64,000 nucleotides of DNA. Source: Chryseobacterium culicis (lineage in GTDB: Bacteria > Bacteroidota > Bacteroidia > Flavobacteriales > Weeksellaceae). The notes beneath the pieces were generated by a model, which did not search any database, was not told the origin of the DNA, and was given only the letters and a program-made list of their open reading frames with translations. Each line of letters opens with the position of its first letter. Position 1 is the first letter of the stretch. The position numbers and the translations under genes were made by a program. Where the stretch lies: positions 868,001 through 932,000 of the forward strand of contig NZ_FNWQ01000002.1 of assembly GCF_900108365.1 (NCBI RefSeq), written 5' to 3'. Positions 9,628-29,570 of this stretch are shown piece after piece.

Positions 9628-11034
9628 TTAGCTATTATATAAAGCTATGTATTTTTCTGCAGATTTCTCCCAGGCAAAATCAAAATTCATGTTGGCATGG
9701 ATAAGTTCTTCCATCATCCCTTTTTGATTATAAATGGCCATCGCCCTATTCATTGCATGTACTATATCATCCACGCCCGGATACGTGAAATTCAGTCCTG
9801 CTCCACCGGTTGAGATATCTTCTACAGTATCTCTGAGACCTCCGGTATATCTTACCACCGGAACAGTTCCGTATCTCATGGAGTACATCTGATTCAATCC
9901 GCAGGGTTCTACTCTGGAAGGCATCAGAAGAAAATCTGCCGAGGCATATATTTTATGGGAAAGATGTTCTTTATATCCCAGATCCAATGCAAAATTGGTA
10001 TAGGTATAGTCGTATTCTTTCAGTTTATTTTCAATATAGGTATTTCCTGAGCCGAGAATCATAATATTTAAAGCTCCGTAGCTTTGTTTAATGCTTCTCC
10101 AAACCACATCCGGCAGGAAATCTGCTCCTTTTTCCGTAGCGAATCTTCCGATAAAGGCAAACAGAGGCAGTTCTGGCCTCAATCCATATTCTTTACAGAG
10201 CTTTTCTTTATTTTTCTTTTTTTGAGCGACTGCATTTTGGATGTTAAAATTAAAATCCAGCATCGGATCAGTCTCAGGGTTCCATACTTCGGTGTCAATA
10301 CCGTTGATAATTCCATAGGCCTTTCCGAATTCCTGACGAACCAGACTTTCCAGTCCGCGGAAGCTTATGAAAAGTTCTTCAAGATAGCCTTCAGAAACGG
10401 TTGTAAAAGCATTGGCACATTTAATCATACTTGCCAGCGGATTCATGAATCCGTTCCAATCCATCAATCCCCATTTGTATGGATCAAATGAAGGCATATA
10501 TTGTGCCATATTCCAGCTCATCATCCCCTGATATTCTCCATTATGAATGGTTCCTATTGTTTTTACGCCTTTTAAGAATTCAAATTCATAACAATTTTCT
10601 ATCATAAAAGGAACCAGCCCGGTATGATAATCGTGGCAGTGAAGAACATCCGGACGTATTTTCATAGCAGAAAGCCAATGCAGCACACCATGCTGAAAAG
10701 CGATGAACTGGAAATTTTCATCCTGATATCCGTAAGGATTATCCCGGTCTAATAATCCGGGAATTTTCACCATATACAGCTCAAAACCCAAAACGTTTGT
10801 TTTTTCTTTCAACACCTGAACCTGCAGCATATTATGCGCCTGATGAATAAACCCGTCAAAAACCAGTTCAAATTCATGATCATAAACAAAGGCTTTATTG
10901 TACCAGGGCATCACTACCTTGGCATCTATCCCTTTTATTTTGTTCTGATATTTCGGGAGTGCTCCCACTACATCTGCCAGACCGCCTACTTTTGCTACAG
11001 GATAACATTCTGTACTTAAATGATAAATAACCAT
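9628..11034 (-). CDS. glgA: Glycogen synthase (ADP-glucose type, GT5)
   Basis: Adds glucose from ADP-glucose to growing alpha-1,4-glucan. The 468-residue GT-B protein has the donor-binding KVGGLADVVGALP motif at residues 15-27, the HCHDYHTGLVP acceptor-side region, FIGRFATEKG at the start of the C-terminal Rossmann domain and the EPCGLNQMYSMRYG motif with the catalytic Glu. Length is normal for GlgA. It lies 3 bases downstream of glgB and 2 bases upstream of the lipoprotein gene, so the operon is translated as a tight unit. Confidence 0.96.
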   Translation of the reverse strand: MVIYHLSTECYPVAKVGGLADVVGALPKYQNKIKGIDAKVVMPWYNKAFVYDHEFELVFDGFIHQAHNMLQVQVLKEKTNVLGFELYMVKIPGLLDRDNPYGYQDENFQFIAFQHGVLHWLSAMKIRPDVLHCHDYHTGLVPFMIENCYEFEFLKGVKTIGTIHNGEYQGMMSWNMAQYMPSFDPYKWGLMDWNGFMNPLASMIKCANAFTTVSEGYLEELFISFRGLESLVRQEFGKAYGIINGIDTEVWNPETDPMLDFNFNIQNAVAQKKKNKEKLCKEYGLRPELPLFAFIGRFATEKGADFLPDVVWRSIKQSYGALNIMILGSGNTYIENKLKEYDYTYTNFALDLGYKEHLSHKIYASADFLLMPSRVEPCGLNQMYSMRYGTVPVVRYTGGLRDTVEDISTGGAGLNFTYPGVDDIVHAMNRAMAIYNQKGMMEELIHANMNFDFAWEKSAEKYIALYNS

Positions 11035-11037
11035 TCT

Positions 11038-12987
11038 TTATCTCTTGTGTTTAATTCTATGTAATTTATACTTTTTATCTTTCTTCTGTCTTAAAATAAT
11101 TCCTGCCAATGGCGGTAACTTGATCGTCATTGTTTTCGGATAGCTCCTCCATTCTTCGTATTTTTCCTCCAGGATTTCAGGCGCTGCTCCGCTTCCGCTG
11201 TATTTTTCATCATCTGAATTTAAAACAGTCTCCCAGTGTGTTCCGGCAGGAATTCCAATTTTATAATCCAATACTTTGGGCGCCAGATTTAAAACAACCA
11301 TCAATACATCTTCTTTTCTTTTACCTTTTCTCAGGTAGATGTAGACCGAGTTTTCCAGATCATCAGCTTCTACCCATTCAAAACCATGCCTATCAAACTG
11401 ATTTTCATAAAATGCAGTTTCTGATGTGTACAGATGATTCAGATCTTTTACCATCTCCTGCATTCCTTTATGAACAGGATATTTGAGTAAATGCCAGTCG
11501 AGACTTCTGGTAAAATTCCATTCACTGGTCTGTCCAAATTCATCACCCATGAAAAGAAGCTTGGCTCCGGGGTGGGTATACATATATACGTACAGGGCGC
11601 GCAGATTGGCAAACTTCTGCCATTCGTCCCCTTTCATTTTATAGATAAGGCTTGCCTTTCCGTGTACGACTTCATCATGTGACAAAGGCATCATATAATT
11701 TTCATTATACATATACATAGAAGCGAAGGTCAGCTTATGATGATGGAATTTACGGTTGTCAAAATCTTCTTTAAAATAATCTAAAGTGTCATGCATCCAG
11801 CCCATCATCCATTTCATACCAAAACCTACGCCGCCATCATGTACGGGTTTGGTAAGCATAGGAAAATCTGAGCTTTCTTCTGCTATGGTGATGATATTAT
11901 CTCCAAATTCTTTGTAAACGGCAGTATTAAATTCCTGCAGAAAGGTTTTCGCCTCAAGGTTTACGTTAGTTCCATATATATTAGGCTCCCACTCGCCTTC
12001 ATTTCTTGAATAATCGAGATGAAGCATTGAGGTAACTGCATCTACCCGCAATCCGTCTGCATGGTAACGGTCCAGCCAGAACATTGCATTGGAGATGAGA
12101 AATGATTTGACTTCATTTCTTCCATAATTGAAAATATATGACTTCCAATCCGGATGAAAGCCTTTTCTCGGATCTTCATGCTCATAGAGGTAAGAACCGT
12201 CAAAGCGGTGAAGACCGTTAGCATCGCCCGGAAAATGAGACGGAACCCAATCCAGAATAACACCTATTTCATTTTTATGCAGTTCATCAATAAGAAACAT
12301 CAGATCCTGTGGTGAGCCGAAACGGGAGGTGGCCGCATAAAACCCTGTGATCTGATATCCCCAGCTTGGCTCATAAGGATATTCCATTACGGGCATAAAT
12401 TCTACATGGGTAAATCCCATCTCTCTGATATAAGGGATCAGTTTTTTGGCGATATCCCTGTAATTCAGAAAACGCTGAGGCTGATCAGCCTCTCTCACCC
12501 AGGATCCGAGATGAAGCTCATAGACTGACAGAGGAGCATTCAGCGTATTTTTTTGCCATCGGCTGTCCATCCACTCCTTATCATCCCATTCATACCATGT
12601 GGTAGATACCAGCGAGGCTGCCTGAATATTTTGTTCCCAGCTCAATGCATACGGATCACTTTTTTCCAGAATTTCTCCCGCAGGAGTTTCAATAGCATAT
12701 TTATATAATGTACCCCAGGTTAGTCCTTCAATAAACCCTTCCCAAATCCCGGATTCGTCCCATCTGGGAAACAGAATATGATCTTTATGATTCCAGTTAT
12801 TAAAATTTCCGATCACGGAAACTTTCTTTGCATTAGGTGCCCATACTGAAAAATATACTCCTTTCACGCCGTCTTTCTCCGCAGAATGTGCTCCAAATTT
12901 ACCGTACAGCTTATAATGTCTACCTTCTTTGAAAAGATACACATCATGATCGGTGAAAAGCGTGTAGGTTTTAACAGAATTCATCAA
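11038..12987 (-). CDS. glgB: 1,4-alpha-glucan branching enzyme (GH13)
   Basis: Introduces alpha-1,6 branches into glycogen. In 649 residues it shows an N-terminal CBM48/E-set (YFSVWAPNAKKVSVIGNFNN, about 46-65), a (beta/alpha)8 GH13 core with the nucleophile Asp in GLRVDAVTSML, the acid/base Glu in TIAEESSDFP and the third Asp in LSHDEVVHG, and a C-terminal all-beta domain. The basic tail KKDKKYKLHRIKHKR is a lineage-specific extension. It is first in glgB-glgA-lipoprotein-glgC. About 196 bases of AT-rich spacer separate it from the divergent esterase gene and probably hold both promoters. Confidence 0.96.
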   Translation of the reverse strand: MMNSVKTYTLFTDHDVYLFKEGRHYKLYGKFGAHSAEKDGVKGVYFSVWAPNAKKVSVIGNFNNWNHKDHILFPRWDESGIWEGFIEGLTWGTLYKYAIETPAGEILEKSDPYALSWEQNIQAASLVSTTWYEWDDKEWMDSRWQKNTLNAPLSVYELHLGSWVREADQPQRFLNYRDIAKKLIPYIREMGFTHVEFMPVMEYPYEPSWGYQITGFYAATSRFGSPQDLMFLIDELHKNEIGVILDWVPSHFPGDANGLHRFDGSYLYEHEDPRKGFHPDWKSYIFNYGRNEVKSFLISNAMFWLDRYHADGLRVDAVTSMLHLDYSRNEGEWEPNIYGTNVNLEAKTFLQEFNTAVYKEFGDNIITIAEESSDFPMLTKPVHDGGVGFGMKWMMGWMHDTLDYFKEDFDNRKFHHHKLTFASMYMYNENYMMPLSHDEVVHGKASLIYKMKGDEWQKFANLRALYVYMYTHPGAKLLFMGDEFGQTSEWNFTRSLDWHLLKYPVHKGMQEMVKDLNHLYTSETAFYENQFDRHGFEWVEADDLENSVYIYLRKGKRKEDVLMVVLNLAPKVLDYKIGIPAGTHWETVLNSDDEKYSGSGAAPEILEEKYEEWRSYPKTMTIKLPPLAGIILRQKKDKKYKLHRIKHKR

Positions 12988-13183: not shown

Positions 13184-14305
13184 ATGAGGTTTGAACTTTA
13201 TACAGAAGAAAAAGACGACAGACCGGTATTTATCACCGGAAATTTCAACAGCTGGAATCCCAAAGATTATAACTTTCAGCTCAAACAGACCGATTCCTCC
13301 CATTATTTTATAGAAATTGATGACCAGATTCTTGCCGATGAAATTGATTACAAATTCACCAAAGGAGGCTGGGAAAATGTTGAGCTGGACCAATATGGAA
13401 ATATTACACCCAACCGAAAAGTACAAAAGTCTGACAGCAAAACTTCTGATACTGTAAAAAAGTGGAGATTAAACTGGGGTCCGTTCAAAGAAGAATATTA
13501 TCCAATAGCAGAGGTTATTTCTGAAAATTTTTATATCCCGCAGCTTGACCGCCACCGTAAGGTATGGGCCCTGCTGCCTTATGACTATCATACCACTGAT
13601 AAGCGGTATCCGGTTCTATATCTTCAGGATGCGCAAAACCTGTTCAGTGAAGGCAGTGGATTCGGGAATTGGGAAATCGACAAAAAGCTTTCTATCCTTG
13701 CAGAATACGGCCGCGGAGACCTTATTATCATCGCCATAGAGCATGGAAGCGAAGAAAGAATCAAAGAATATATTTTTGATAATGATCATGTAGCCAACGG
13801 CTCGGAAGGAAAAAAATACATCCGCTTCATTGCAGATACTCTGAAACCTTATGTGGACGAAAATTACAGAACCAAAAAAGACCGCGACAATACCGGAATC
13901 GGAGGCAGTTCATTAGGAGCACTCATCAGCATATACAGTGGGTTTCTTTATCCTGAAGTATATTCTAAACTCCTGATCTTTTCTCCTTCTCTTTGGGTAG
14001 AACCGAATAACAACTTTCCTATGATGAGCTTCAGAGTTCCTTTTAAAACTAAAATTTATCTGTACGGCGGCAGCCAGGAAGGATCCAAGATGGTCAAAAG
14101 AATTCACATTTTTGAAGAGTACCTGAAAAGATGGGAAGAGAAAAAGCTTTTTGATTTTGAGTTTAAAACCAATATAAATCCAGAGGGCACACACAATGAA
14201 TTTTACTGGTCGCAGGAGTTTCCGAGGGCGATAGAATGGCTGTTCTATGACAATACGGAAAATCCTGTAGAAGTAAAACCACAACAGCAGAGCATCAAAG
14301 AATAA
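13184..14305 (+). CDS. Esterase-family alpha/beta hydrolase with N-terminal CBM48-like domain
   Basis: 373 residues in two parts. Residues 1-90 resemble the E-set/CBM48 fold of glycogen-active enzymes (FITGNFNSWNPKDYNF near residues 18-33). From about 105 onward is an esterase_D-type alpha/beta hydrolase, with VWALLPYDY, PVLYLQDAQNLF and the nucleophile elbow GIGGSSLGAL near 240. No signal peptide, so cytosolic. The architecture resembles enterochelin esterase Fes and xylan/glucan esterases with E-set domains. It is divergent from glgB and first of the rightward amide-ligase run; the next gene follows after 34 bases. Substrate unknown: a glucan ester or an ester/thioester intermediate of the run are both possible. 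Confidence 0.82.
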   Translation: MRFELYTEEKDDRPVFITGNFNSWNPKDYNFQLKQTDSSHYFIEIDDQILADEIDYKFTKGGWENVELDQYGNITPNRKVQKSDSKTSDTVKKWRLNWGPFKEEYYPIAEVISENFYIPQLDRHRKVWALLPYDYHTTDKRYPVLYLQDAQNLFSEGSGFGNWEIDKKLSILAEYGRGDLIIIAIEHGSEERIKEYIFDNDHVANGSEGKKYIRFIADTLKPYVDENYRTKKDRDNTGIGGSSLGALISIYSGFLYPEVYSKLLIFSPSLWVEPNNNFPMMSFRVPFKTKIYLYGGSQEGSKMVKRIHIFEEYLKRWEEKKLFDFEFKTNINPEGTHNEFYWSQEFPRAIEWLFYDNTENPVEVKPQQQSIKE

Positions 14306-14339
14306 GCCTGAAAATTGCTTAAGAAATTCTCAGAAAGCA

Positions 14340-15788
14340 ATGCAGGACACAAGAGAAATACAACATCTACTTATGAAACTGATCAATAAAAAAAACAAAA
14401 ATTACACTCAGGTTTTCCATCTATTCACCGAAGAAGAATGGGCTAAAACCGGTAAAAATTTCAATAAAAATATAGCCACTTTTTTCACGGGAAAAAAATA
14501 TGAGGTTTTTGTGAATGCCCATGAAGAAGGAATTACTTATTTCATTGGGTTAGGAAAATCTGGCCTGCAGAATTTTGAAATCCAGCAGGTGGCTGCCAAA
14601 TTCTCACAATCCCAGAAAGAAAAGCTCCAGGCAGTCCCCACGCTGGCACTGGCCGATTTCATGAATGAACAGCAATTCGAAGAATTGATTAAAGGCTTGC
14701 TGGCAGGTACCTATAATTATCCTTTTGATAAAAAACATGTATTCTGGAATCCGAAATTTGAACTGCATTTTGAAAATTTAAGCCAGAAAAAATTAGATCA
14801 TATCAGCCATAAAACAGAAGCTTTGATTAACGGACAGACGGCCTGCCAGGAATGGCTGAACAAACCTGCCAATATGAAAAAACCGGAAATCTTAAGTGCA
14901 TATCTTAAAAATCTGTCTAAAAAATATGATCTAAAATACACGGTCTTCAACAGGAAGAAATGTGAAGAACTGGGATTGGGAGCCTATCTGTCCGTTAATC
15001 AGGGAAGTGCTTACGATGCCGCTTTTACCATTGTAGAATATAAAACAACGGTTAAAAATGCCAAAACCTTCGGGCTGGTAGGCAAATGTATCTTGTTTGA
15101 TACCGGAGGGATATCAATAAAAAGTTCTGCCAATCTTCATTATATGAAATCTGATATGGGAGGTGCTACAGCGGTTATAGGAACATTAATTTATGCCGCA
15201 GAAATGCAGCTTCCGGTAAACATCATTGCTGTGCTTCCTATTACGGACAATGCTGTTTCCGAGAAAGCCCTTCTTCCGAGCGATGTAATTACGGCTTACA
15301 ACGGAAAAACCATCGAAGTGCTTGATACGGACGCAGAAGGCCGGTTAATTCTTGCAGACGGACTGTCTTATCTTTCCAAAAACTACAAAACAGATTTCCT
15401 GATTGATCTGGCTACTTTAACCGGAAGCTCGGTAAGAATGTTTGGAGATACCTGCGCGGCCATGTTCTCCAATAATGAGGAATTGAAAAATAATCTCATC
15501 AAAACAGGAGATCTAACCAATCAGAGACTTTGGAATCTTCCATTATGGGAGGTATGGAAAGACGATATTCAGTCAGATGTGGCAGACATGAAAAATATCT
15601 CCTTAAAACCAATCGGAGACTGTATTATTGCTGCAAAATTTTTAGAGCAGTTCACTGAAAACCACCCTAAATGGGCACATTTGGATATCGCGGGCGTTGC
15701 TTTTGGGAATGTAGGCTATGCCAGAGAAAAAGCAGCAACCGGTTATGGAGTTCAGCTCCTCGTGAATTTAATTGAAAATTATCACTAA
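14340..15788 (+). CDS. M17 leucyl aminopeptidase family protein
   Basis: Cytosolic dimetal aminopeptidase of the PepA/LAP family, 482 residues, about usual length. The C-terminal catalytic domain shows LFDTGGISIKSSA (metal ligand Asp), MKSDMGGATAV (second Asp), and LDTDAEGRLILADGL, which replaces the canonical NTDAEGRL Asn with Asp. The N-terminal 150 residues are the more variable LAP N-domain. It removes N-terminal residues from peptides or cleaves dipeptides. The position inside a run of ligases and esterases suggests recycling or maturing a peptide-like product, but a housekeeping role is equally compatible. Confidence 0.9.
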   Translation: MQDTREIQHLLMKLINKKNKNYTQVFHLFTEEEWAKTGKNFNKNIATFFTGKKYEVFVNAHEEGITYFIGLGKSGLQNFEIQQVAAKFSQSQKEKLQAVPTLALADFMNEQQFEELIKGLLAGTYNYPFDKKHVFWNPKFELHFENLSQKKLDHISHKTEALINGQTACQEWLNKPANMKKPEILSAYLKNLSKKYDLKYTVFNRKKCEELGLGAYLSVNQGSAYDAAFTIVEYKTTVKNAKTFGLVGKCILFDTGGISIKSSANLHYMKSDMGGATAVIGTLIYAAEMQLPVNIIAVLPITDNAVSEKALLPSDVITAYNGKTIEVLDTDAEGRLILADGLSYLSKNYKTDFLIDLATLTGSSVRMFGDTCAAMFSNNEELKNNLIKTGDLTNQRLWNLPLWEVWKDDIQSDVADMKNISLKPIGDCIIAAKFLEQFTENHPKWAHLDIAGVAFGNVGYAREKAATGYGVQLLVNLIENYH

Positions 15789-15892
15789 AAATTAGTTTTT
15801 TACAAAAAAACTCTGTATACTTGATTAGTGGATTTTCAAAACCGCACAATATTCCATTATTTACTATTAATAAAATAATAAATAAATGCTTT

Positions 15893-15900
15893 TATTTTTG
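15893..15900 (+). promoter_or_regulatory. Putative -7 element upstream of the first ATP-grasp gene
   Basis: TATTTTTG matches TAnnTTTG and lies 30 bases before the ATG at 15930, in a 141-base AT-rich spacer. No convincing -33 box was seen. It suggests that the ATP-grasp genes can be transcribed separately from the esterase-M17 pair. Confidence 0.35.
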
Positions 15901-15929
15901 AAAATTCACTACATCTTAAAAAACATTAT

Positions 15930-17144
15930 ATGGAGAAGAAAACTATTGTGTGTATTTCGTGCTATTACAAAGGCTACGATTTTATGGACGAAATGAAGAA
16001 GCTCGGCCATACAGTCATCCTCGTCACATCAGAAAACCTCAAAGAAAAAAATTGGCCCTGGCATGCTATTGATGAAACGTTTTATATGCCTGAACTGAAG
16101 CCGTCTGTGTGGAACCTGGAGCATCTTATCCAGGGATTTTCCCACCTGATGAAAACCAGAAAAGTAGATGCGGTAGTAGCTTTGGATGATTATGACGTAG
16201 AAAAAGCCGCATTAATCAGAGAAACATTCCGTATTCCGGGGATGGGCCAGACTACCCACCGGTATTTCAGAGATAAGCTGGCCATGCGCCAAAAAGCAAA
16301 AGATTCCGGGATCAGCGTTCCTGAATTTACCGCGGTATTCAATGATGATGAAGTGAACGAATTCACAGACCGCGTTCCGGCACCATGGGTATTGAAACCG
16401 CGATCAGAAGCATCCGCATCAGGAATCAAAAAAATAACTTCCAGGGAACAGCTTTATGAAGCGTTAGAAGCATTGGGAGAAGAACGTCATCTCTTTTTAC
16501 TGGAAAGTTTTAAGCCCGGAGATGTTTATCATGTAGACAGCCTAACTTTTAATAAAAAAATTGTATTCACTTCAGCCTCTAAATATCTTGCTCCTCCTAT
16601 GCAGGTTTCCCATGAAGGCGGAGTATTCAGATCCAAAACGCTGGGCAGATATTCTGAAGAGTTTAAAGCATTAGAAGAAATTAACGCCCGCGTACTTTCT
16701 GACTTCGGACTTATAAATGGGGCTACTCACACAGAGTTTATCCGTGGGAAAGAAGATGGCAAATGGTATTTCCTTGAGACCTCTTCAAGAGTTGGCGGAG
16801 CACATATTCCGGATCTTGTGGAAGCTTCAAGCGGCATCAATATATGGAGAGAATGGGCGAAGATTGAAGATGCGCTTCTGAGAGGCACTGATTATGATGT
16901 TTCAACCCCCTCAAGCTACTATTCCGGACTAATTGTAGCATTGATCAAAGATAAAGAACCTGACTATAGTAATTTTGAGTGTGAAGAAGCTGTCAAATTC
17001 CTTCCTATAGAATACCACGTCGGGATTGTTTATAAGTCTGATAAAGCCTCCGTTATAGAAGAAAGACTGGATTCCGCGGCAGAGCTGATTCATGCGGATA
17101 TGCTGAATATCTTACCTCCCAAAAGTACCAAGCTCAGCTCCTGA
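15930..17144 (+). CDS. ATP-grasp ligase
   Basis: 404-residue predicted carboxylate-amine/thiol ligase that activates a carboxylate as acylphosphate. The N-terminal Rossmann-like domain (VCISCYYKGYDF, VVALDDYDVEKAALIRE) precedes an ATP-grasp fold: WVLKPRSEASASGIKKI (nucleotide-binding Lys and glycine-rich loop, about 152-168), LLESFKPGDVYHVDS, and THTEFIRG with WYFLETSSRVGG, carrying the Mg-binding acidic/Asn region. The preATP-grasp portion resembles carnosine-synthase/BtrJ-like peptide ligases. Substrates cannot be inferred. A second ATP-grasp gene lies 1 kb downstream, with an esterase between them. Confidence 0.88.
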   Translation: MEKKTIVCISCYYKGYDFMDEMKKLGHTVILVTSENLKEKNWPWHAIDETFYMPELKPSVWNLEHLIQGFSHLMKTRKVDAVVALDDYDVEKAALIRETFRIPGMGQTTHRYFRDKLAMRQKAKDSGISVPEFTAVFNDDEVNEFTDRVPAPWVLKPRSEASASGIKKITSREQLYEALEALGEERHLFLLESFKPGDVYHVDSLTFNKKIVFTSASKYLAPPMQVSHEGGVFRSKTLGRYSEEFKALEEINARVLSDFGLINGATHTEFIRGKEDGKWYFLETSSRVGGAHIPDLVEASSGINIWREWAKIEDALLRGTDYDVSTPSSYYSGLIVALIKDKEPDYSNFECEEAVKFLPIEYHVGIVYKSDKASVIEERLDSAAELIHADMLNILPPKSTKLSS

Positions 17145-17263
17145 ATCAGGCAGTATGCTATTGATATACAAAATACTAGCAAATTCATACTAGGTAATTG
17201 AGTGGAGAATCCTTTCCGAAACGTAATTTAAAAAGCCTTAATTCAAAAAAAACACGAGAATAG

Positions 17264-17353
17264 GATAATTATCAGTTCATTGACCCATGCGATGCCAATC
17301 AACCGGATATTGAAGAAAAGATCAGCTCGGAGGAATTGAACTTATCAAATTAA
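17264..17353 (+). pseudogene. Possible decayed coding remnant
   Basis: A 29-codon open stretch without a start codon runs from just after a TAG at 17261 to TAA at 17351. Its translation is hydrophilic and protein-like (QFIDPCDANQPDIEEKISS, then EELNLSN). It sits in the 228-base spacer between an ATP-grasp gene and an esterase gene. It may be the tail of a lost gene or chance. Confidence 0.25.
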
Positions 17354-17372
17354 TACAATTAAACACAAAGAA

Positions 17373-18086
17373 ATGCCTCATATAGAACATACAGATTATT
17401 ATTCAAATATATTGGGAACAAGTCTCAAGGTAGAAGTGACCGGGCATTATGGCCATCCTGTCATCATGTTCCCTACTTCCCAGGGACAATACACCCAAAA
17501 CCATGATTTTCATCTCAATGGAAGCATCAATTGGTTCGTAGAACAGGGAAAAGTAAAGCTTTATAACATACAGACCATCGACAGCTGGAGTTTTTACGAT
17601 GATAAAATTTCTCCCCAGCAAAGAATAAGAAACTACGAACGGTATGTACAGTTTCTCATTAAAGAATTTGTGCCTTATATCCAGAAGCTTCACAAGACTC
17701 ATCGAGTAGCAGTTGCAGGAGCCAGTTTTGGCGGATATCATGCCGCTAATTTTGCATTCCGGTTTCCGGATGTGGTTTCTCATCTTTTTTGCCTCTCCGG
17801 AGCTTTCAGTATCAGAAATTTCATAGACGGCTATTCTGATGATCTGGTGTATTTCAACTGTCCCAGAGAATTTGTAAGAAATGATGAAGCCTGGAAATAC
17901 AAACATATGCATATTGTACTGAGCACTTCTGATCAGGACATCTGCAGAGAAAAAAACGTAGAAATGGCGGAAATCTTAAGACTGAAAGGCATAGACTTCT
18001 GGTACGACGAAAGAAAATGGATAGGCCACGACTGGCCTTTATGGAGAATGGTCTTCCCGACCTTTATAGGAGCTTTCTTCTCTTAG
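17373..18086 (+). CDS. Esterase-family alpha/beta hydrolase
   Basis: 237-residue cytosolic hydrolase of the putative-esterase (PF00756-like) group. The nucleophile elbow is AVAGASFGGYHAANF near residues 112-126; an acidic residue in STSDQDICRE and the His of WIGHDWPLWR near 226 complete the probable triad. Unlike the larger esterase at 13184 it has no E-set domain. It lies between two ATP-grasp genes on the same strand, 51 bases before the second one. Such pairing suggests that it releases an ester or thioester, or trims the product of the ligases; this is inference. Confidence 0.82.
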   Translation: MPHIEHTDYYSNILGTSLKVEVTGHYGHPVIMFPTSQGQYTQNHDFHLNGSINWFVEQGKVKLYNIQTIDSWSFYDDKISPQQRIRNYERYVQFLIKEFVPYIQKLHKTHRVAVAGASFGGYHAANFAFRFPDVVSHLFCLSGAFSIRNFIDGYSDDLVYFNCPREFVRNDEAWKYKHMHIVLSTSDQDICREKNVEMAEILRLKGIDFWYDERKWIGHDWPLWRMVFPTFIGAFFS

Positions 18087-18137
18087 CACAACAAAAAACA
18101 AATAGAAAAAAATATATCCATCTTAAAAACAAAAATT

Positions 18138-19091
18138 ATGACAAAAAAAGTAGGAATTCTTTTCGGTATGGAAGATACATTTCCCTGGGCATTTATTGAC
18201 AAAGTGAACGAGCTTGGAGGTGGAGAAATCGTGGCTGAACCCGTTACTATTGACAAACTTGAACAGGGAGCAGATTATGGCTATGCAGTGATCATCGACA
18301 GAATTTCGCAGGACGTTCCCTTTTACAGAGCTTATCTGAAAAATGCAGCACTTAACGGCACCTATGTGATCAACAATCCATTTTGGTGGAGCGCAGACGA
18401 AAAGTTTTTCAACAATGCCCTGATGTCTAAACTGGGAATTCCTCTTCCTAAGACCGTTTTGCTGCCATCACATGAAAGACCGGACAATACTTCAGAAACT
18501 TCATTCAGAAACCTCAAATTTCCGCATGACTGGGAATATATCTTCAATTATGTAGGATTTCCGGCATACATGAAGCCTCACGACGGTGGCGGCTGGAAGA
18601 GTGTTTACAGGGTGGAAAATCCGGATGATCTCTGGAATAAGCTGGGTGAAACGGAACAGCTGGTCATGATGGTACAGGAAGAAATTGTTTTTGACGACTA
18701 TTACAGAGTGTACTGCCTGGGCAGAAAATATGTCCACATTATGCCTTATGAACCGAGAAACGCCCCTCATTTAAGATATGCCACCACTCATCAGACACAA
18801 GGAAAAGAGCTTGAAAAATTGCTGAAAACCATTCATGACTATACCATTACAATGAATGAAGCTTTGGGGTATGATTTCAATACTGTAGAGTTTGCTGTGA
18901 GAGACGGTATTCCTTATGCCATCGACTTCTGTAATCCGGCTCCGGATGCTGACAGAAATTCTGTGGGAGAAGAAAACTTTGCATGGATTATAGAGCATGC
19001 AGCCAAACTGGCTGTAGAAAAAGCTAAAGAATACGTTCCGGGGAAACCGAATATTGCCTGGGGAACCTTTGTGAAGGATTCCATTAAATAA
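18138..19091 (+). CDS. Second ATP-grasp ligase
   Basis: 317-residue ATP-grasp protein, shorter than the one at 15930. The core is visible: YMKPHDGGGWKSVYRV (ATP-binding Lys and Gly-rich loop, about 149-164), MMVQEEIVFDDYYRVYCLG (hinge and adenine-binding region) and FNTVEFAVRDGIPYAIDFCN with the Mg-binding Glu/Asp/Asn. A conserved ENFAWIIEHAAK helix follows. Predicted to form an amide bond with ATP. It precedes the GCS2 ligase by 32 bases, so the two are almost certainly co-expressed. Substrate unknown. Confidence 0.88.
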   Translation: MTKKVGILFGMEDTFPWAFIDKVNELGGGEIVAEPVTIDKLEQGADYGYAVIIDRISQDVPFYRAYLKNAALNGTYVINNPFWWSADEKFFNNALMSKLGIPLPKTVLLPSHERPDNTSETSFRNLKFPHDWEYIFNYVGFPAYMKPHDGGGWKSVYRVENPDDLWNKLGETEQLVMMVQEEIVFDDYYRVYCLGRKYVHIMPYEPRNAPHLRYATTHQTQGKELEKLLKTIHDYTITMNEALGYDFNTVEFAVRDGIPYAIDFCNPAPDADRNSVGEENFAWIIEHAAKLAVEKAKEYVPGKPNIAWGTFVKDSIK

Positions 19092-19123
19092 CATTGAAAA
19101 AAAATAAAAAAACACAATAAAAA

Positions 19124-20245
19124 ATGCATCATCAGTTTACTATTGGAATTGAAGAGGAATATCAGATCATTGATGTTGAAAGCAGAGATCTTGTTTCTCA
19201 CGTTTCAAAAATCATTGAAGGCGGCAAAGCTGTTCTGAGCGAAAACTTAAAGCACGAAATGCACGAATCCATGATTGAAATGGAAACCGGAATCTGCCAG
19301 AATATTCAGGAAGCAAGAGCAGAATTAACGAATTTAAGACGTCACCTTATCAATACCGCCCACGAGCAGGGGCTACGTGTTTCAGGAGGCGGTACTCACC
19401 CATTCTCGCATTGGTCGGACAATAATATCACTCAGGGAGAAAGATATATTAAGATCGTAGATGATATGGGAGATGTTGCCCGCGAAAACCTTATTTTCGG
19501 ACTGCATGTTCACATTGGAATTCCCAACCGTGAAGAGGGCGTGAGAATTCAAAATGTAATGCGCTATTTTCTTCCTCACGTGTATGCGCTTTCTACCAAT
19601 TCACCATTCTGGATCGGTAGATATACAGGCTTTAAATCATACAGACAGGAAATCTTTGTCAAATTCCCAAGGACCGGTATTCCGAGTTATTTTAACTCAC
19701 TGGCAGAATTTGACAGCTATGTAGATCTTCTGGTAAAAACAGGAACTATCGACAATGCTAAGAAAATCTGGTGGGATCTTCGTGTACACCCATTCTATCC
19801 TACGATTGAATTCAGGATCTGCGATATGCCTCTGAGAATAGATGAAACGGTATGCCTGGCAGCCATCATGCAGAGCCTCGTTGCTAAAATTTATAAGCTT
19901 CATCAGCAGAACCTGAGCTTCAGAAGCTACAGAAGACTTCTTTTGAATGAAAATAAGTGGCGCGCTTCCAAAAGCGGTATAGAAGCTCATCTTATTGATT
20001 TTGGAAAAGAGGAATCCGTACCGTATCCTCATTTATTAAAAGAACTTTTAGAGTTTATTGATGATGTCGTAGATGACTTAGGATGCCGTCACGAAGTAGA
20101 ATATGCATGGAAAATCCTGGAAAACGGAACCGGAGCAGACCGACAGCTTCAGATCTTCAAAGAAACCGGTGATCTGACGAAAGTAGTTGATTATATGATC
20201 TCTGAAACAGAATATGGCATCACTCATGGTGAACCTGCTTCCTAA
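19124..20245 (+). CDS. YbdK-type carboxylate-amine ligase (GCS2 family)
   Basis: 373-residue member of the glutamate-cysteine ligase family 2 (glutamine-synthetase fold), the COG2170/YbdK group. Diagnostic segments: TIGIEEEYQIID at residues 5-16 with metal-binding Glu residues, HEMHESMIEMETG near 44-56, GGGTHPFSHW near 87-96, FGLHVHIGIPN near 125-135 and IEFRICDMPLR near 228. YbdK of E. coli has weak gamma-glutamylcysteine ligase activity in vitro, but the true substrate of this subgroup is not known. It lies directly between an ATP-grasp gene and a glutamine amidotransferase, giving two different ligase folds plus an ammonia donor side by side. Confidence 0.9.
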   Translation: MHHQFTIGIEEEYQIIDVESRDLVSHVSKIIEGGKAVLSENLKHEMHESMIEMETGICQNIQEARAELTNLRRHLINTAHEQGLRVSGGGTHPFSHWSDNNITQGERYIKIVDDMGDVARENLIFGLHVHIGIPNREEGVRIQNVMRYFLPHVYALSTNSPFWIGRYTGFKSYRQEIFVKFPRTGIPSYFNSLAEFDSYVDLLVKTGTIDNAKKIWWDLRVHPFYPTIEFRICDMPLRIDETVCLAAIMQSLVAKIYKLHQQNLSFRSYRRLLLNENKWRASKSGIEAHLIDFGKEESVPYPHLLKELLEFIDDVVDDLGCRHEVEYAWKILENGTGADRQLQIFKETGDLTKVVDYMISETEYGITHGEPAS

Positions 20246-20255
20246 ATATTTTTGG

Positions 20256-20263
20256 TAACTTTG
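20256..20263 (+). promoter_or_regulatory. Putative internal -7 element before the amidotransferase gene
   Basis: TAACTTTG matches TAnnTTTG and lies 17 bases before the ATG at 20280, overlapping the spacer after the GCS2 gene. It would give a near-leaderless transcript. No clear -33 box. Confidence 0.35.
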
Positions 20264-20279
20264 CAAAAAATATGATGTA

Positions 20280-21113
20280 ATGAAAGATATTCGAATTGCG
20301 CTGCTGGACATGAACAACAATCATGTGAATCAAGGCTTCAGAAACATTAAAGAGATTTCCGAAGCATTTCAGCAGCACTCTGAAGAAAATGTGGTCATCA
20401 AGACATTTGATGTGAGATTTAAAGATGAAATGCCTGAGATTGGAGATTTTGATATTTTTATTTCTTCCGGCGGACCGGGAAATCCACATCGTGAAGGTCA
20501 TGACTGGGAAGACAGATTTGCCCATTTTCTAGACGCTGTTCTGGAACATAATACCTACAATGAAGATAAAAAATACCTTTTCCTGATCTGTCATTCTTTC
20601 CAGCTGGCAAGCATTCACTGGAATCTGGGAAATATCTGCAAAAGAAAGTCTTACTCTTTCGGAGTAATGCCTGTTCACAAAACGGATGAAGGTAAAGAGG
20701 AATTTTTATTTAAAAATCTTCAGGATCCTTTTTATGCAGTAGATTCCAGAGCGTATCAGTTTATAGAGCCGAATCATAAACGTTTTGAGGAACTTGGAAT
20801 GACCGTTATGGCAATAGAAAAATTCCGTCCCCATATCAATCTTGAAAGAGCAGTAATGGCAGTACGCTTTTCGGAAGAAATATTCGGAACCCAGTTTCAC
20901 CCTGAAGCCAATCCTGAATCTCTGATCGAAAATCTGAAAGATGAAAAAAACAGGGAAGCCATGATTGAAAACTTCGGAATGGAGAAATATCTTGAAACGA
21001 TGGACAGAATAGATGATGAAGACAAAATTATCCTGACCAGAAATCAAATCCTTCCGAGATTCCTTCAGTTTGCAAAAAAAAACATTTTGAAAGAAGCTGA
21101 ATCTTTGGCTTAA
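20280..21113 (+). CDS. Class I glutamine amidotransferase (GMP-synthase-like)
   Basis: 277-residue free-standing class I GATase predicted to hydrolyse glutamine and supply ammonia, or to act as a gamma-glutamyl hydrolase. The oxyanion region SSGGPGNPHREGHDW is near 63-77, the catalytic Cys is in FLICHSFQLAS near residue 104, and the His-Glu dyad is in TQFHPEANPESL. No synthetase domain is fused, so it is not guaA. Its neighbours are a GCS2 ligase and ATP-grasp ligases, so it may feed ammonia to one of them or cleave a gamma-glutamyl intermediate, as PuuD does. Its C-terminal 60 residues are an extra helical tail. Confidence 0.88.
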   Translation: MKDIRIALLDMNNNHVNQGFRNIKEISEAFQQHSEENVVIKTFDVRFKDEMPEIGDFDIFISSGGPGNPHREGHDWEDRFAHFLDAVLEHNTYNEDKKYLFLICHSFQLASIHWNLGNICKRKSYSFGVMPVHKTDEGKEEFLFKNLQDPFYAVDSRAYQFIEPNHKRFEELGMTVMAIEKFRPHINLERAVMAVRFSEEIFGTQFHPEANPESLIENLKDEKNREAMIENFGMEKYLETMDRIDDEDKIILTRNQILPRFLQFAKKNILKEAESLA

Positions 21114-21120
21114 AAAAGCC

Positions 21121-21232
21121 GGAAGCTGGAGGAAGAATGCCGGAGGTTATTATTGGTTAGGAATACTAACGATCCTTTTATTTGTGGACAGTACATATTT
21201 TCAGGCCTCAAAACTTCCCTCTTCCAGCTTCC
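21121..21232. repeat. Dispersed intergenic repeat, copy 2, with inverted ends
   Basis: A 112-base element between the amidotransferase and GspS-like genes. The left end GGAAGCTGGAGGAAGAATG and the right end CTTCCCTCTTCCAGCTTCC are imperfect inverted repeats. The left 35 bases also match the spacer at 7630. The size and ends are MITE-like or REP-like, and no transposase is nearby. Confidence 0.55.
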
Positions 21233-21292
21233 AGACAATAACAATCGGGCAGAAATGCTCGATTTTTTTAACATCACAAAAGAAAAAAAATA

Positions 21293-22477
21293 ATGATTCC
21301 AAAATACAGAAAGCAATTTAATGATGAGTTTTCGGATGAAAAGTACAGTCAGTTAAAGGATATTTTGCTGCAAAAAGGAGGCATAGCCCCTACTTTCAGA
21401 ATTTCCGAAAGTCCTATTTTTCTGACCAAAGACTTTGAGGCAAAATTAATAGACGCCAGCGAAAGCATCATCAGCCAGATTAAGACAATGCCGTCAGACT
21501 TATTGCAAAAAGCGATCCCCGATAACTGCAGGGTTCCCAATGATACAGATCAGCCCCATTTTTTCACCATTGATTTTGGAGTCTGCAAAAGTGAAAACGG
21601 AGAAATAGAACCTCAGCTGATAGAGCTTCAGGCCTTCCCTTCTCTCTATGCTTTCCAGAAAGTATATGAAGAAACATTCTGTGAGGTCTATCCATTTCTT
21701 TCTGAAATCAAAAATCCACTGCCTCAGGAAACTTTTAAAAATTATTTGAAAGAGTTAATCTTAGGCGATGAACATCCGGAAAATGTAATTCTGCTTGAAA
21801 TATTCCCGGAAAAACAAAAAACTGCCATTGATTTTGCTTTAACAGAGAAATTATTGGGGATAAAAACAGTTTGTCTTACCAAAGTAAAAAAGGAAGGCAG
21901 GAAACTCTATTATGAAAACAATGGAAAACGGATAGAAATTAAAAGAATCTATAACCGTGTCATATTTGATGAGCTTGATAATATTCCTGATCTTGTGACA
22001 GAGTTTAACTTCCGTGAAGAGGCTGATGTCAAATGGATCACCCATCCCAACTGGTTTTTTAAAATATCCAAGTTTCTTTTGCCTTTACTGAAGCATCAGT
22101 TCGTTCCGAAGAGTTATTTTCTGCATGAATTTCCTGAGCACGAAAACCTCGAAGATTTTGTGTTAAAGCCACTATTTTCATTCGCGGGAAGTGGCGTTAA
22201 TCTGAATCCAACAAAAGAAATAACCGATGCCATTCAGGACAAGGAAAATTATATTCTGCAGAGAAAGGTAATGTATGAACCTGTCTTTGAAGACATCAAT
22301 GGCGAGTTCTCAAAAGCAGAGATCCGTTTACTGTATATCTGGAGAGAAAATGATGAGCGCCCTATCCTTTTGGAAAACCTTGGAAGAATGACCAAAGCCG
22401 CCATGGTAAATGTAGATTTTAATAAAAAAGATGCCATCTGGATTGGAAGTTCGAATGCTTTTTTCGCAGAAGGATAA
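21293..22477 (+). CDS. Glutathionylspermidine-synthase-like ATP-grasp protein
   Basis: 394-residue protein with no obvious annotation at first sight. The C-terminal half follows the order of the glutathionylspermidine synthase amide-ligase fold: THPNWFFKISKFLLPLLK then a short gap and FVLKPLFSFAGSGVNL, which corresponds to the ATP-binding Lys and Gly-rich loop of GspS, then YILQRKV (hinge), AEIRLLYIW and LENLGRMTKAAMVN (catalytic Arg/Asn region). The N-terminal FTIDFGVCKSENGEIEPQLI segment also suits GspS-like proteins. Predicted amide ligase acting with the preceding genes; a strong terminator follows. Fold assignment is from pattern only. Confidence 0.65.
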   Translation: MIPKYRKQFNDEFSDEKYSQLKDILLQKGGIAPTFRISESPIFLTKDFEAKLIDASESIISQIKTMPSDLLQKAIPDNCRVPNDTDQPHFFTIDFGVCKSENGEIEPQLIELQAFPSLYAFQKVYEETFCEVYPFLSEIKNPLPQETFKNYLKELILGDEHPENVILLEIFPEKQKTAIDFALTEKLLGIKTVCLTKVKKEGRKLYYENNGKRIEIKRIYNRVIFDELDNIPDLVTEFNFREEADVKWITHPNWFFKISKFLLPLLKHQFVPKSYFLHEFPEHENLEDFVLKPLFSFAGSGVNLNPTKEITDAIQDKENYILQRKVMYEPVFEDINGEFSKAEIRLLYIWRENDERPILLENLGRMTKAAMVNVDFNKKDAIWIGSSNAFFAEG

Positions 22478-22504: not shown

Positions 22505-22551
22505 AAAAAGAGGCTTCGGCTGAACCTTTGGTTCAGCCGAAGCCTCTTTTT
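22505..22551. terminator. Strong bidirectional terminator closing the ligase run
   Basis: A perfect 21-bp inverted repeat (AAAAAGAGGCTTCGGCTGAAC and its complement) around a 5-base loop, flanked by A and T runs on both sides. It lies 28 bases after the GspS-like gene. Confidence 0.92.
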
Positions 22552-22798: not shown

Positions 22799-23968
22799 AT
22801 GCGAAGTTTAAAAAACATATCAGTTGCTTTATTGTTTTTATCTTTTTTATCAAGCTGTAATAATCCAAAGAAAAATGAGAGCTCAGATTTTGACAATTAT
22901 TTGGATGCCCTGGTACAGCCCGTAATGGAAAAGAATGATATTCCTGGGGTAAGCATTGCCATAACAGTAAATGGGAAACATACTTTTTTCAATTACGGAC
23001 TGGCTTCAAAAGCAGACAAAATAGAAGTTACCAATACAACTTTATTCGAACTGGGTTCCGTAAGCAAGACGTTCACGGCTACTTTAGCCAGTTTATCACA
23101 AGTGAATGGGACACTTAACTTATCTGATCCTGTAAGCAAATATATGCCCGAAATTAAAAACCCAGCTTTTGACCAGATAAAGCTTTACCATCTCGGAACG
23201 CATACAGCCGGTGGATTTACATTGCAGTTACCTGATGAAATTACTAATAATGAGCAGCTCATTAATTACTATAATGCATGGAAACCAGATTACCCTGCAG
23301 GTACCCAAAGAATGTACACCAATCCGAGCATTGGTCTTCTGGGTGTTATTGCCGGAAAAACATTCAAACAGCCTTTCACCAAAGCAATGACCCAAAATGT
23401 TTTCACTAAAATGGGTTTGAATAATACTTTTTATGAAGTACCTGCTGAAAATATGAGTCAATACGCATTCGGTTACAGTAAAAATGATGAGCCGATCCGT
23501 GTAAACCCGGGAGTTCTGGCTGATGAAGCTTATGGAGTGAAATCATGCACACAGGATATGATTACTTTTATAGACGCCAATATGGGAATTGGAAACATTG
23601 ACAGTAAATTATCCGCAGCCATAATGAATACGCATACCGGATATTTTAATACCACAGAAATGACTCAGGACCTGATTTGGGAACAATATAATTATCCGGT
23701 TACACTGGAACAGCTTCAAAAGGGGAATTCCGCGGATATGGCTTTCAAACCTAATTCTGTGAAGGAAATTCTTCCGCATCAGAAACCGAAACTTGATGTA
23801 TTGATTAATAAGACCGGAGCGACCAATGGTTTTGGAGCGTATGTAATGTATGTTCCTTCAAAAAAGATAGGTATTGTAATTCTTGCCAATAAAAATTATC
23901 CTAATGCTGAAAGGATTGATATTGCATATAAAATCTTATCCTATATAGAAAAATCTGAAAAACTATAA
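22799..23968 (+). CDS. Class C (AmpC-type) beta-lactamase, lipoprotein
   Basis: 389-residue serine hydrolase with the three class C motifs: SVSK with nucleophile Ser87, the YxN element in RMYTNPSIG and the KTG triad in INKTGATNGFGAYV. The C-terminal KIGIVILANKNYPNAERID closely follows the AmpC pattern, which separates it from DD-carboxypeptidase-like paralogues. The N-terminus is a signal peptide with lipobox FLSSC (Cys20), so it is predicted to be membrane-anchored rather than freely periplasmic. No ampR-like regulator flanks it. Expected to hydrolyse cephalosporins; its spectrum cannot be read from sequence. Isolated between two terminators. Confidence 0.9.
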   Translation: MRSLKNISVALLFLSFLSSCNNPKKNESSDFDNYLDALVQPVMEKNDIPGVSIAITVNGKHTFFNYGLASKADKIEVTNTTLFELGSVSKTFTATLASLSQVNGTLNLSDPVSKYMPEIKNPAFDQIKLYHLGTHTAGGFTLQLPDEITNNEQLINYYNAWKPDYPAGTQRMYTNPSIGLLGVIAGKTFKQPFTKAMTQNVFTKMGLNNTFYEVPAENMSQYAFGYSKNDEPIRVNPGVLADEAYGVKSCTQDMITFIDANMGIGNIDSKLSAAIMNTHTGYFNTTEMTQDLIWEQYNYPVTLEQLQKGNSADMAFKPNSVKEILPHQKPKLDVLINKTGATNGFGAYVMYVPSKKIGIVILANKNYPNAERIDIAYKILSYIEKSEKL

Positions 23969-28253: not shown

Positions 28254-28439
28254 AGTCTATTGGCATTTTAACATTTAATAATAACTCCTTTCAGAATCAA
28301 AGATAATGTAAAACCCTAAAAAAAACCATACCACAATTAAAGATTTGCTAAAAAAAAATTAATTTTAATTAACATTTTTAAAACATTAAAAATCAGCTAA
28401 AGATGGCACGAAATTCGCGAATGAATGTGAATTATTTTT

Positions 28440-28447
28440 TAATTTTG
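28440..28447 (+). promoter_or_regulatory. Putative -7 element of the cphB promoter
   Basis: TAATTTTG matches TAnnTTTG and ends 4 bases before the ATG at 28452, so a transcript from it would be nearly leaderless or would use the second ATG at 28455. No clear -33 box. Confidence 0.4.
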
Positions 28448-28451
28448 TACA

Positions 28452-29342
28452 ATGATGAAACCTGTTGGAAAATTAATAGTTATCGGAGGCGCTGTAAATA
28501 AAGGCAGTTTTGCTGAAACCGATTATGATCAAAATATCGAAAAGAACCTTAATTTTTTTGAGCGTGGGATCTTAAGAAAGATCATCAACGAATCTAAGCA
28601 CAAGGAAAACTCTGTGATAGAAATTGTTACAACCGCTTCTCAAATCCCTCAGATTGTAGGTTCCGAATACAAAAAAGCATTTGAATTTCTGGGTGCTAAA
28701 AATGTCAATGTTCTGGACATCCACAACCGCGAAGAAGCTAATTCTGACGCTATAGTGGCAAGAGCCAACGCTGCCGATGTTATGATGTTCACCGGAGGAG
28801 ACCAGCTGAGGCTGACTTCTATTCTTGGCGGAACAAGATTTCATGACACAATTCTATTAAAATATCAGGAACAGGATTTTATCTATTCCGGAACTTCTGC
28901 GGGGGCCGCCGCTGCTTCGGAAAATATGATCTATCAGGGAAGCAGTTCCGAAGCCCTTTTAAAAGGGGAAATCAAAACTACGCAGGGCCTGGGTCTTATA
29001 GATAACGTTATTATAGATACCCATTTTGTACAACGGGGAAGAATCGGGCGTCTGTTCCAGGCAGTAGTAAACAATCCGAGAACTTTGGGAATCGGTCTGG
29101 GAGAAGATACCGGGCTTTTTATTCATAATGATGTGATGACAGCGGTAGGATCGGGACTGGTTATCTTAGTAGACGGAAGATTTATTAAAGATACCAACCT
29201 TACGAATATCAATCTTGGAGAACCTATTTCTATTGATAACCTAACGGTGCATGTAATGTCTATGAATGATCATTACGATCTTACAACAAAGAAATTAACG
29301 ATAGAAAATTCTCAGTTTAATCCGATACCACAGGATAAGTAG
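28452..29342 (+). CDS. cphB: Cyanophycinase
   Basis: 296-residue S51-family serine exopeptidase that cuts cyanophycin to beta-Asp-Arg dipeptides. Key features: GKLIVIGGAVNKG at residues 6-18, FTGGDQLRL near 113-121, the nucleophile elbow YSGTSAGAAAASE with Ser149, and a conserved DTHFVQRGRIGRL near 190-202. No signal peptide, as expected for a cytosolic enzyme working on cytoplasmic granules. It is divergent from cphA, and the isoaspartyl peptidase that should finish the pathway is the next gene on the same strand. Confidence 0.95.
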   Translation: MMKPVGKLIVIGGAVNKGSFAETDYDQNIEKNLNFFERGILRKIINESKHKENSVIEIVTTASQIPQIVGSEYKKAFEFLGAKNVNVLDIHNREEANSDAIVARANAADVMMFTGGDQLRLTSILGGTRFHDTILLKYQEQDFIYSGTSAGAAAASENMIYQGSSSEALLKGEIKTTQGLGLIDNVIIDTHFVQRGRIGRLFQAVVNNPRTLGIGLGEDTGLFIHNDVMTAVGSGLVILVDGRFIKDTNLTNINLGEPISIDNLTVHVMSMNDHYDLTTKKLTIENSQFNPIPQDK

Positions 29343-29570
29343 TACAGGATGCGGACATTCCGGGTTCAGGGTCCCGAGGTTTATCAATGCAGGAGATTCG
29401 TTTTTTCAAAAAATACACTCGCTGTACTGCAACCTGGAACCACGAAATCCGAAACTCATGCCAGCACGATGTATGGATAAAATTCCTATCTTTTCCCTGT
29501 ATTAATAGCCTGGATTCTTATTATTGTCAGTACAAATACAGAATTCCGGAACATAAAACCTATACCTACT

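Follow-up and report, generated by a model that had tools for sequence, protein, structure and literature searches.

The genes described here lie in a window of 64,000 nucleotides from Chryseobacterium culicis (contig NZ_FNWQ01000002.1, positions 868,001 to 932,000 of the forward strand), the whole stretch of DNA that was analysed, and form a run of eight, g1 to g8, encoding four predicted amide ligases together with two esterases, a peptidase and a glutamine-amidotransferase-like protein (Table 1). All eight are complete, intact open reading frames (ORFs) on the forward strand between 13184 and 22477, as stated in the initial annotation, which was made from the sequence alone, and the strong terminator that it placed at 22505 is a real 20-pair inverted repeat. 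Its description of the spacers as mostly short holds for four of the seven (32-51 bp) and fails for three; from g1 to g8 they measure 34, 141, 228, 51, 32, 34 and 179 bp. Because of these three longer spacers, and of the weaker hairpin with a T-rich tail in the g7-g8 gap, a single transcript for g1-g8 is only plausible. The M17 peptidase, the ATP-grasp protein g3, the second esterase, the YbdK-type GCS2 protein and the class I glutamine amidotransferase (GATase) were matched to those families by Pfam or NCBIfam; for g1 the esterase assignment stands, and its “E-set” portion found no confirmation, there being no Pfam domain over residues 1-119. The DTDAEGRL motif of g2 is the M17 signature.

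Table 1. The g1-g8 run and neighbouring features, in coordinates of the window
Feature	Coordinates	Strand	Basis
g1, Esterase (PF00756) alpha/beta hydrolase	13184..14305	+	Pfam, 83 bits; GGSSLG nucleophile elbow read by eye
g2, M17 leucyl-aminopeptidase-type metallopeptidase	14340..15788	+	Peptidase_M17, 349 bits; DTDAEGRL motif
g3, ATP-grasp protein of L-amino-acid-ligase type	15930..17144	+	ATP-grasp_4, 33.6 bits, above cut-off
g4, small Esterase-family alpha/beta hydrolase, 5' of g5	17373..18086	+	Pfam Esterase, 35.9 bits
g5, predicted RimK/LysX/ArgX-like ATP-grasp ligase, constant member of the system	18138..19091	+	AlphaFold model and fold comparison
g6, GCS2/YbdK-type carboxylate-amine ligase (PRK13515)	19124..20245	+	Pfam GCS2 and NCBIfam
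g7, class I glutamine-amidotransferase-like protein with Cys-His-Glu triad	20280..21113	+	Pfam GATase, 36.5 bits
g8, predicted ligase of GspS/YgiC fold (permuted ATP-grasp)	21293..22477	+	AlphaFold model and fold comparison
Weaker terminator-like hairpin in the g7-g8 gap	21243..21264	+	9 pairs, T-rich tail
Terminator-like perfect 20-pair palindrome with A/T flanks, closing the run	22507..22549	.	20-pair inverted repeat
Glycogen genes glgA and glgB, directly 5' of the run	9628-12987	other strand	
Class C beta-lactamase, between the run and cphA	22799-23968		NCBIfam bla_class_C, 538 bits, above cut-off
Cyanophycin set: cyanophycin synthetase, cyanophycinase, Asparaginase_2/beta-aspartyl-peptidase-like gene	25623-30413		TIGR02068, 1265 bits; TIGR02069, above cut-off

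The run is a conserved system rather than a chance assembly, and this could be addressed by searching the same 148 Bacteroidota genomes for every gene. Strong matches to g5 are found in 58 genomes from 23 families, a count that omits the matches in G089 (E 7.5e-4), G007 (E 3e-48) and G087 (E 6e-47), with which there are 61. A g8 is present in 49 genomes, 48 of them with g5 (Fisher p 1e-27; this and the following p-values overstate the linkage because related genomes are not independent), leaving out a 25-residue match in G047 that would bring the total to 50. Counted above its cut-off only (51 of 55 genomes), g6 accompanies g5 in 50 of 51 (p 1e-29). All of the 34 genomes with g3 (at E < 1e-80, which keeps 34 of 58) and all of the 40 with g7 (cut-off 1e-30) also carry g5 (p 4e-18 and 2e-22, respectively), so that at the cut-offs used neither g3 nor g7 occurs without g5 among the 148 genomes; g6 and g7 are each found without the other. 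No match to PRK13515 above cut-off was present in 14 control genomes.

Every one of the 58 g5 genomes holds either g8 or a protein of about 450 residues, here called F8, whose sequence weakly resembles circularly permuted ATP-grasp families (Pfam CP_ATPgrasp_2, 23.7 bits against a cut-off of 32). At a search cut-off of 1e-20, F8 is present in all ten g5 genomes lacking g8; beyond those ten it was found only in G137, as a weaker match (350 bits) alongside g8. The occurrence of g5 coincides exactly with that of g8 or F8 in 22 of the 23 g5-carrying families, eight of the 22 being polymorphic (nine of 23 overall), and in four families of which only some genomes carry g5 (3/14 genomes in f2, 3/5 in f3, 4/6 in f4 and 7/13 in f14) the same genomes hold g6, the second ligase and g7. 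Thus g5 together with g8 or F8 makes up the constant core, g6 is nearly constant (50/58) and the remaining genes are optional; the refuting observation proposed with the initial annotation, that the genes occur independently in relatives, does not apply to this core. F8 lies directly between g5 and g7 in all ten F8-only genomes, four of which keep g6, and g8 alone is missing from all ten. We pair F8 with g8 because of this exact complementarity and the type of ligase; most simply read, any genome with g5 requires a second ATP-grasp ligase step, for which either g8 or F8 can serve. F8 and g8 would then perform the same job; comparison of the two by hhalign gave a probability of 4.5, a score that speaks neither for nor against a common origin.

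Gene order was compared in two sets of loci, one of 60 (59 Bacteroidota regions around g5 plus the window) and one of the best 80 of the 583 relatives found, hence the closest ones, in which the g5 of Chryseobacterium sp. CH25 is 98% identical to that of the window. Around g5 in the 60-locus set, g6 is found in 32 loci, g8 in 30, g7 in 29 and g4 in 26, and esterases of the g1 group in 24, often 5' of g5 on the opposite strand. Among the best 80 of 583, the order g4-g5-g6-g7-g8 on one strand is kept in 67 loci, across genera and across families: these include Chryseobacterium, Kaistella, Elizabethkingia, Epilithonimonas, Maribacter, Polaribacter, Winogradskyella, Dyadobacter and Hymenobacter, as well as records from Cyclobacteriaceae and Saprospiraceae. 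Some of the other 13 are cut by contig ends, and others are genuinely different, for example both Runella loci (g4-g5-g6 only) and Larkinella (without g7). Median spacers within g4-g8 are 55, 31.5, 39 and 9.5 bp; g7 adjoins g8, with a brief overlap in some loci, and g6 and g7 are neighbours in most of the set. The first three genes behave otherwise. In the same 80 loci, g1, g2 and g3 stand beside the core in 21, g2 and g3 in 6 more and g3 alone in 2; in Polaribacter (L154) and Saprospiraceae (L146, L151) g1-g3 are beside the core in another order or on another strand, and among 20 distant g3 regions g2 is next to g3 in six, four of those also with g1. Because g1-g3 are found partly beside the core in this altered form and partly together away from it, the eight genes fall into two modules, g1-g3 and g4-g8, united in some lineages; the description of a single eight-gene run is therefore right for the linkage of g4-g8 and too broad for g1-g3, which are sometimes unlinked. 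That the two modules can be apart, and that glycogen and cyanophycin genes flank them here, might suggest unrelated housekeeping genes placed side by side by chance, an explanation that is barely credible given an order and co-occurrence that extend over 23 families and already refute it for g4-g8 and for g3.

For two of the ligases, g5 and g8, no Pfam model matched above its cut-off. At a looser limit g5 matches Pfam R2K_2 (E 0.09), and its score against NCBIfam rimK_fam (31.7 bits, cut-off 143.4) is short of membership, as is that of g8 against GSP_synth PF03738 (17.7 bits, cut-off 29.3). AlphaFold models built from 29-row alignments had high mean confidence (pLDDT, the predicted local distance difference test, 90.4 for g5 and 91.4 for g8), and were compared with known structures preselected by Foldseek, families outside that list staying possible. 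Along its entire length the g5 model matches RimK, LysX and ArgX (Z 21.3-21.9, root-mean-square deviation (rmsd) 2.7-3.1, 258-266 residues aligned), the match to the 292-residue chain 5zct (Z 21.9, rmsd 3.0, 264 aligned) placing it in the RimK/LysX-like ATP-grasp fold; D-Ala-D-Ala ligases come nearly as high, at Z about 20. The top matches of the g8 model are YgiC, YjfC, GspS and eukaryotic glutathione synthetases (Z 24-25, rmsd 3.2-3.9, 328-368 aligned), including YgiC 7uk8 (Z 25.4, rmsd 3.6, 344 aligned) and GspS 2ioa (Z 24.7, rmsd 3.8, 345 aligned), which assigns it to the GspS/glutathione-synthetase fold; the fungal ligase Cp1B is also similar (Z 22.6, rmsd 3.3, 351 aligned). By these models g5 and g8 are RimK/LysX-like and GspS/YgiC-fold ligases, respectively, and the names “ATP-grasp” and “GspS-like” first given to them were well chosen. 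The ATP/Mg residues K146, E251, D263 and N266 of g5 are invariant in 58/58 relatives, and D94, E111, Q113, K260, K292, G299 and G301 of g8 in 29/29, the first five of these aligning with their YgiC and Gss counterparts. The conserved g8 residues (D..E.N/Q, two lysines and a glycine loop) presumably have the ATP and Mg roles described for GspS. The RefSeq name of YgiC, among the nearest solved relatives of g8, is peptide-spermidine ligase.

The best fold matches of g5 are protein-modifying or carrier-protein ligases, and aminopeptidases are linked to the run, both of which would suit a protein modification in which g5 adds amino acids to a protein, as RimK does on ribosomal protein S6 and LysX on LysW, the tail is then capped by g8, and g7 and the M17 or M29 peptidases take it off again. 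We consider this unlikely: a small carrier or target gene, if conserved, would not fit into the two largest gaps, g3-g4 and g7-g8, which narrow to 27-89 bp in L032 and L033; the GCS2 enzymes, the L-amino acid ligases that g3 resembles and Cp1B, which has the g8 fold, act on small molecules; and for g5 the D-Ala-D-Ala ligases are nearly equal to the protein-modifying ones.

The remaining enzymes could be assigned from family models and solved relatives. Gene g6 scores 221 bits against GCS2 PF04107 (cut-off 21) and 535 bits against NCBIfam PRK13515 (cut-off 371), and matches YbdK 1r8g with E 3e-49; it is thus a member of the GCS2/YbdK/PRK13515 group, with gamma-glutamyl ligation as its putative activity. 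The Mg/ATP signature GhExE, described for GCS2 enzymes in PMC2588565, corresponds to G8 I9 E10 E11 E12, and G8, E10, E11 and E12 are invariant in 32/32 sequences. The GATase score of g7 compares with a cut-off of 22.8, and its triad C104, H207 and E209 is kept in 29/29 aligned sequences. The nearest solved chain to g3 is the L-amino acid ligase 4wd3 (E 4e-17, residues 72-310), followed by 3vot (E 3e-9), and g3 falls below the equivalog cut-offs of BacD (18.2 of 850 bits) and DdaF (21.7 of 840 bits). Intact catalytic residues, named at the outset as a test of the four ligases, are therefore seen in g5, g6 and g8, and in g7 as well, whereas the g3 alignment comprises seven sequences, with no catalytic residue assigned. 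In the esterase g4, the nucleophile Ser118 is kept in 25 of 28 aligned sequences and replaced in three (by Gly, Gly and Glu in L048, L050 and L057, respectively); there, g7 is outside the cluster, elsewhere in the genome.

The initial annotation gave the GATase the task of supplying ammonia, which the comparative data do not support. As a true amidotransferase, g7 would feed ammonia to a ligase, which would then make a terminal carboxamide; its GATase score above cut-off and its position next to g8, the two genes overlapping slightly in some loci, agree with that. However, g7 should then follow g8, yet 18 of the 46 genomes carrying g5, g6 and g8 have no g7 match (1e-30), and in two of these (L052, L071) an M29 aminopeptidase stands between g6 and g8 in its place, so that we judge an amidotransferase to be quite improbable. 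As a precedent, PMC2588565 describes a GATase-like thiol peptidase adjoining another family of GCS2-sized ligases. Because of the g7-less genomes, the M29 gene in its place and this pairing, g7 is more likely a gamma-glutamyl or related amide hydrolase than an ammonia supplier. M29 as a general substitute for g7 was considered and rejected: at a search cut-off of 1e-20, a close gene (62-100% identity) is present in only 2 of the 18 g7-less genomes, and the other 13 of the 15 M29-matching genomes have distant M29 proteins only, so that M29 is a local replacement.

A hydrolase paired with a gamma-glutamyl ligase could also serve amine scavenging. Here g6 would protect an amine or amino acid by gamma-glutamylation, g5 and g8 would work on the protected form, and once it had been processed g7 would take the glutamate off, a scheme that resembles the logic of the Puu pathway. 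Speaking for it are the g6-g7 neighbourhood in most of the 80 loci, the class I GATase family of g7 with its Cys-His-Glu triad intact, the ligase-peptidase pairing described in PMC2588565 and a sodium:solute symporter next to g8 in family f26. Even so we find it improbable, since no oxidase or dehydrogenase is among the eight conserved families, g6 and g7 each occur alone, and two further ligases would be left over. Of the two f26 genomes concerned, G133 has the symporter gene as the direct neighbour of g8, and in G125 the two share a single open frame, which hints at substrate uptake in that lineage and means that the lack of a transporter, pointed out for the present run, is not general. In locus L173:4637-7240 (f26) the symporter (PF00474, 128 bits) and g8 form one uninterrupted frame, and in L185 they are separate neighbours; the single frame may reflect either a gene fusion or a misassembly.

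On balance, and with some reservation, we lean towards a dedicated non-ribosomal pathway that assembles a small gamma-glutamyl-type oligoamide stepwise in the cytoplasm. In this pathway, whose substrates, step order and product we infer, g6 would phosphorylate a carboxylate (that at the gamma position of glutamate being the likeliest) and join it to an amine or amino acid to give gamma-glutamyl-X; g5 would add one amino acid to this intermediate in the fashion of RimK/LysX; and g8, or F8 where g8 is missing, would form the last carboxylate-to-amine bond in the fashion of GspS/YgiC. By cutting a gamma-glutamyl or amide bond, g7 could deprotect, trim or recycle the product, and M17 or M29 peptidases could likewise trim or recycle. 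In lineages having g3 there may be a side module in which g3 makes dipeptide building blocks and g2 trims them, with g4 and g1 as putative accessory esterases. The original proposal, that the ligases and hydrolases build a small amide-linked metabolite, is upheld in that the genes are functionally linked and their order and key residues are kept; its ammonia supply is not supported.

Several observations weigh against this pathway. The fold of the ligases does not fix a substrate, and no substrate, product or phenotype has been assigned. The association tests ignore shared ancestry. Among the 23 families, f22 is the exception to the pairing of g5 with g8 or F8; its genes are scattered, with g5 and g6 on the same contig within 26 kb in 5/7 cases, and G144 has g6 and g8 without g5. 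The weaker g5 matches in G007 and G087 (32 and 35% identity) come without g8 and F8, and of the 58 g5 genomes 8 lack g6 and 18 lack g7. F8 occupies the usual place of g6, not that of g8, and g6 is itself absent from six of the ten F8-only genomes; for these reasons F8 might stand in for g6, whether in addition to g8 or in its stead. Finally, Gss and YgiC have an Arg just ahead of the metal Asp (“RMD” or “RLD”) that g8 (“TID”) lacks, so that donor binding in g8 differs from theirs. A more specific version of the proposal, a polyamine acceptor supplied by way of NspC, found no support: NspC is above cut-off in only 5 of the 148 genomes (all five with g5) and is unmatched in the genome of C. culicis itself.

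The surroundings of the run were also inspected. In the window and in many Chryseobacterium-group loci it is followed by cphA, cyanophycinase and the beta-aspartyl-peptidase-like gene, and the latter two are near the core in Hymenobacter (L165, L169) and in L042. A cyanophycin link as a general explanation was dropped because the association is not significant: counting cphA above its cut-off only (17 genomes; some match is present in all 148), 10/17 cphA genomes have g5 against 48/131 of the others (p 0.11). With glgA and glgB on the other side, glycogen and cyanophycin genes flank the ligase run here; a glgB match occurs in 16 of the best 80 of 583 loci. The class C beta-lactamase is not at the corresponding place in L032 and L033. 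Eight f22 genomes have a gene of 480-489 codons ahead of g8, and the two of these that were run through Pfam (L174, L176) are Amidohydro_3; a YtcJ-type Amidohydro_3 gene also stands before g8 in G043 (L181, f25) and between g6 and g7 in G115 (L046:6196-8025), the lineages concerned belonging to different classes. In seven loci the gene after g5 belongs to an aromatic ammonia-lyase group, of which one member was run through Pfam. A class III aminotransferase is near the core in 17 of the best 80 of 583 loci, including L123:13641-14855 (one member Pfam-checked), after g8 in Dyadobacter and relatives and 5' of the core in L155, L158 and L162. Neighbours such as Amidohydro_3 and the ammonia-lyase are mostly bound to one lineage and were not used for the pathway.

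Roughly two in five of the Bacteroidota genomes sampled (58/148, 23 families) thus carry the constant ligase pair. Because g5 is so strictly paired with g8 or F8, loose annotations such as “ATP-grasp” and “carboxylate-amine ligase” become a testable synthesis of two or three steps, which would give functions to ligase families without a Pfam model above cut-off. Should the product be cofactor-like, much of the phylum would share it as a general feature. A bolder version, which we think rather unlikely, has the product as a widespread, hitherto unseen gamma-glutamyl peptide-amine conjugate of Bacteroidota, standing there as glutathionylspermidine or trypanothione do elsewhere, with its final bond made by either of two differently descended permuted ATP-grasp ligases. 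A literature search whose scope did not take in the 2009 amidoligase survey found no paper on the gene set and none assigning a product; that survey, by Iyer et al., may have listed part of the neighbourhood. The pathway looks uncharacterised, the chemistry of multi-ligase non-ribosomal synthesis is of a known kind, and earlier comparative genomics may have touched on it.

Among known systems, RimK, LysX and ArgX have the whole-length fold of g5 (Z about 22) and differ from it in sequence (12-18% identity), in that no carrier protein was found for g5 and in its invariant D263-x-x-N266, where ExN is the usual motif (PMC4431377). YbdK/PRK13515 includes g6 by the NCBIfam cut-off, the family name giving no substrate; the difference is that g6 sits in a multi-ligase run. 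The ATP-grasp dipeptide antibiotics of the dapdiamide, bacilysin, rhizocticin and tabtoxin type have a parallel in g3, which resembles L-amino acid ligases and, weakly, DdaF and BacD, but the run is without a warhead-making gene and the system is wide, with its 23 families. In the E-64 pathway (Cp1B and an amide bond synthetase), Cp1B shares the fold of g8 and, according to PMC12568646, which cites the work on YgiC/YjfC by title, joins an acid to an amino acid to give a pseudodipeptide; that pathway is fungal, and nothing in g1-g8 corresponds to its oxygenase or its ANL-family enzyme. The neighbourhoods of GCS2-sized ligases with GATase-like thiol peptidases show the same ligase-peptidase pairing, in another GCS2-like family and with no ATP-grasp partner in the text consulted (PMC2588565). 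The synthesis of glutathionylspermidine and trypanothione (GCS, glutathione synthetase and GspS), together with E. coli YgiC/YjfC, differs in that g8 is 11-15% identical to the top chains, has no Arg ahead of the metal Asp and is not long enough to hold an amidase domain, and in that a RimK-like g5 stands in place of glutathione synthetase; it has in common with the present run the combination of a gamma-Glu-type ligase with a ligase of the GspS/YgiC fold, whose ATP/Mg residues g8 keeps.

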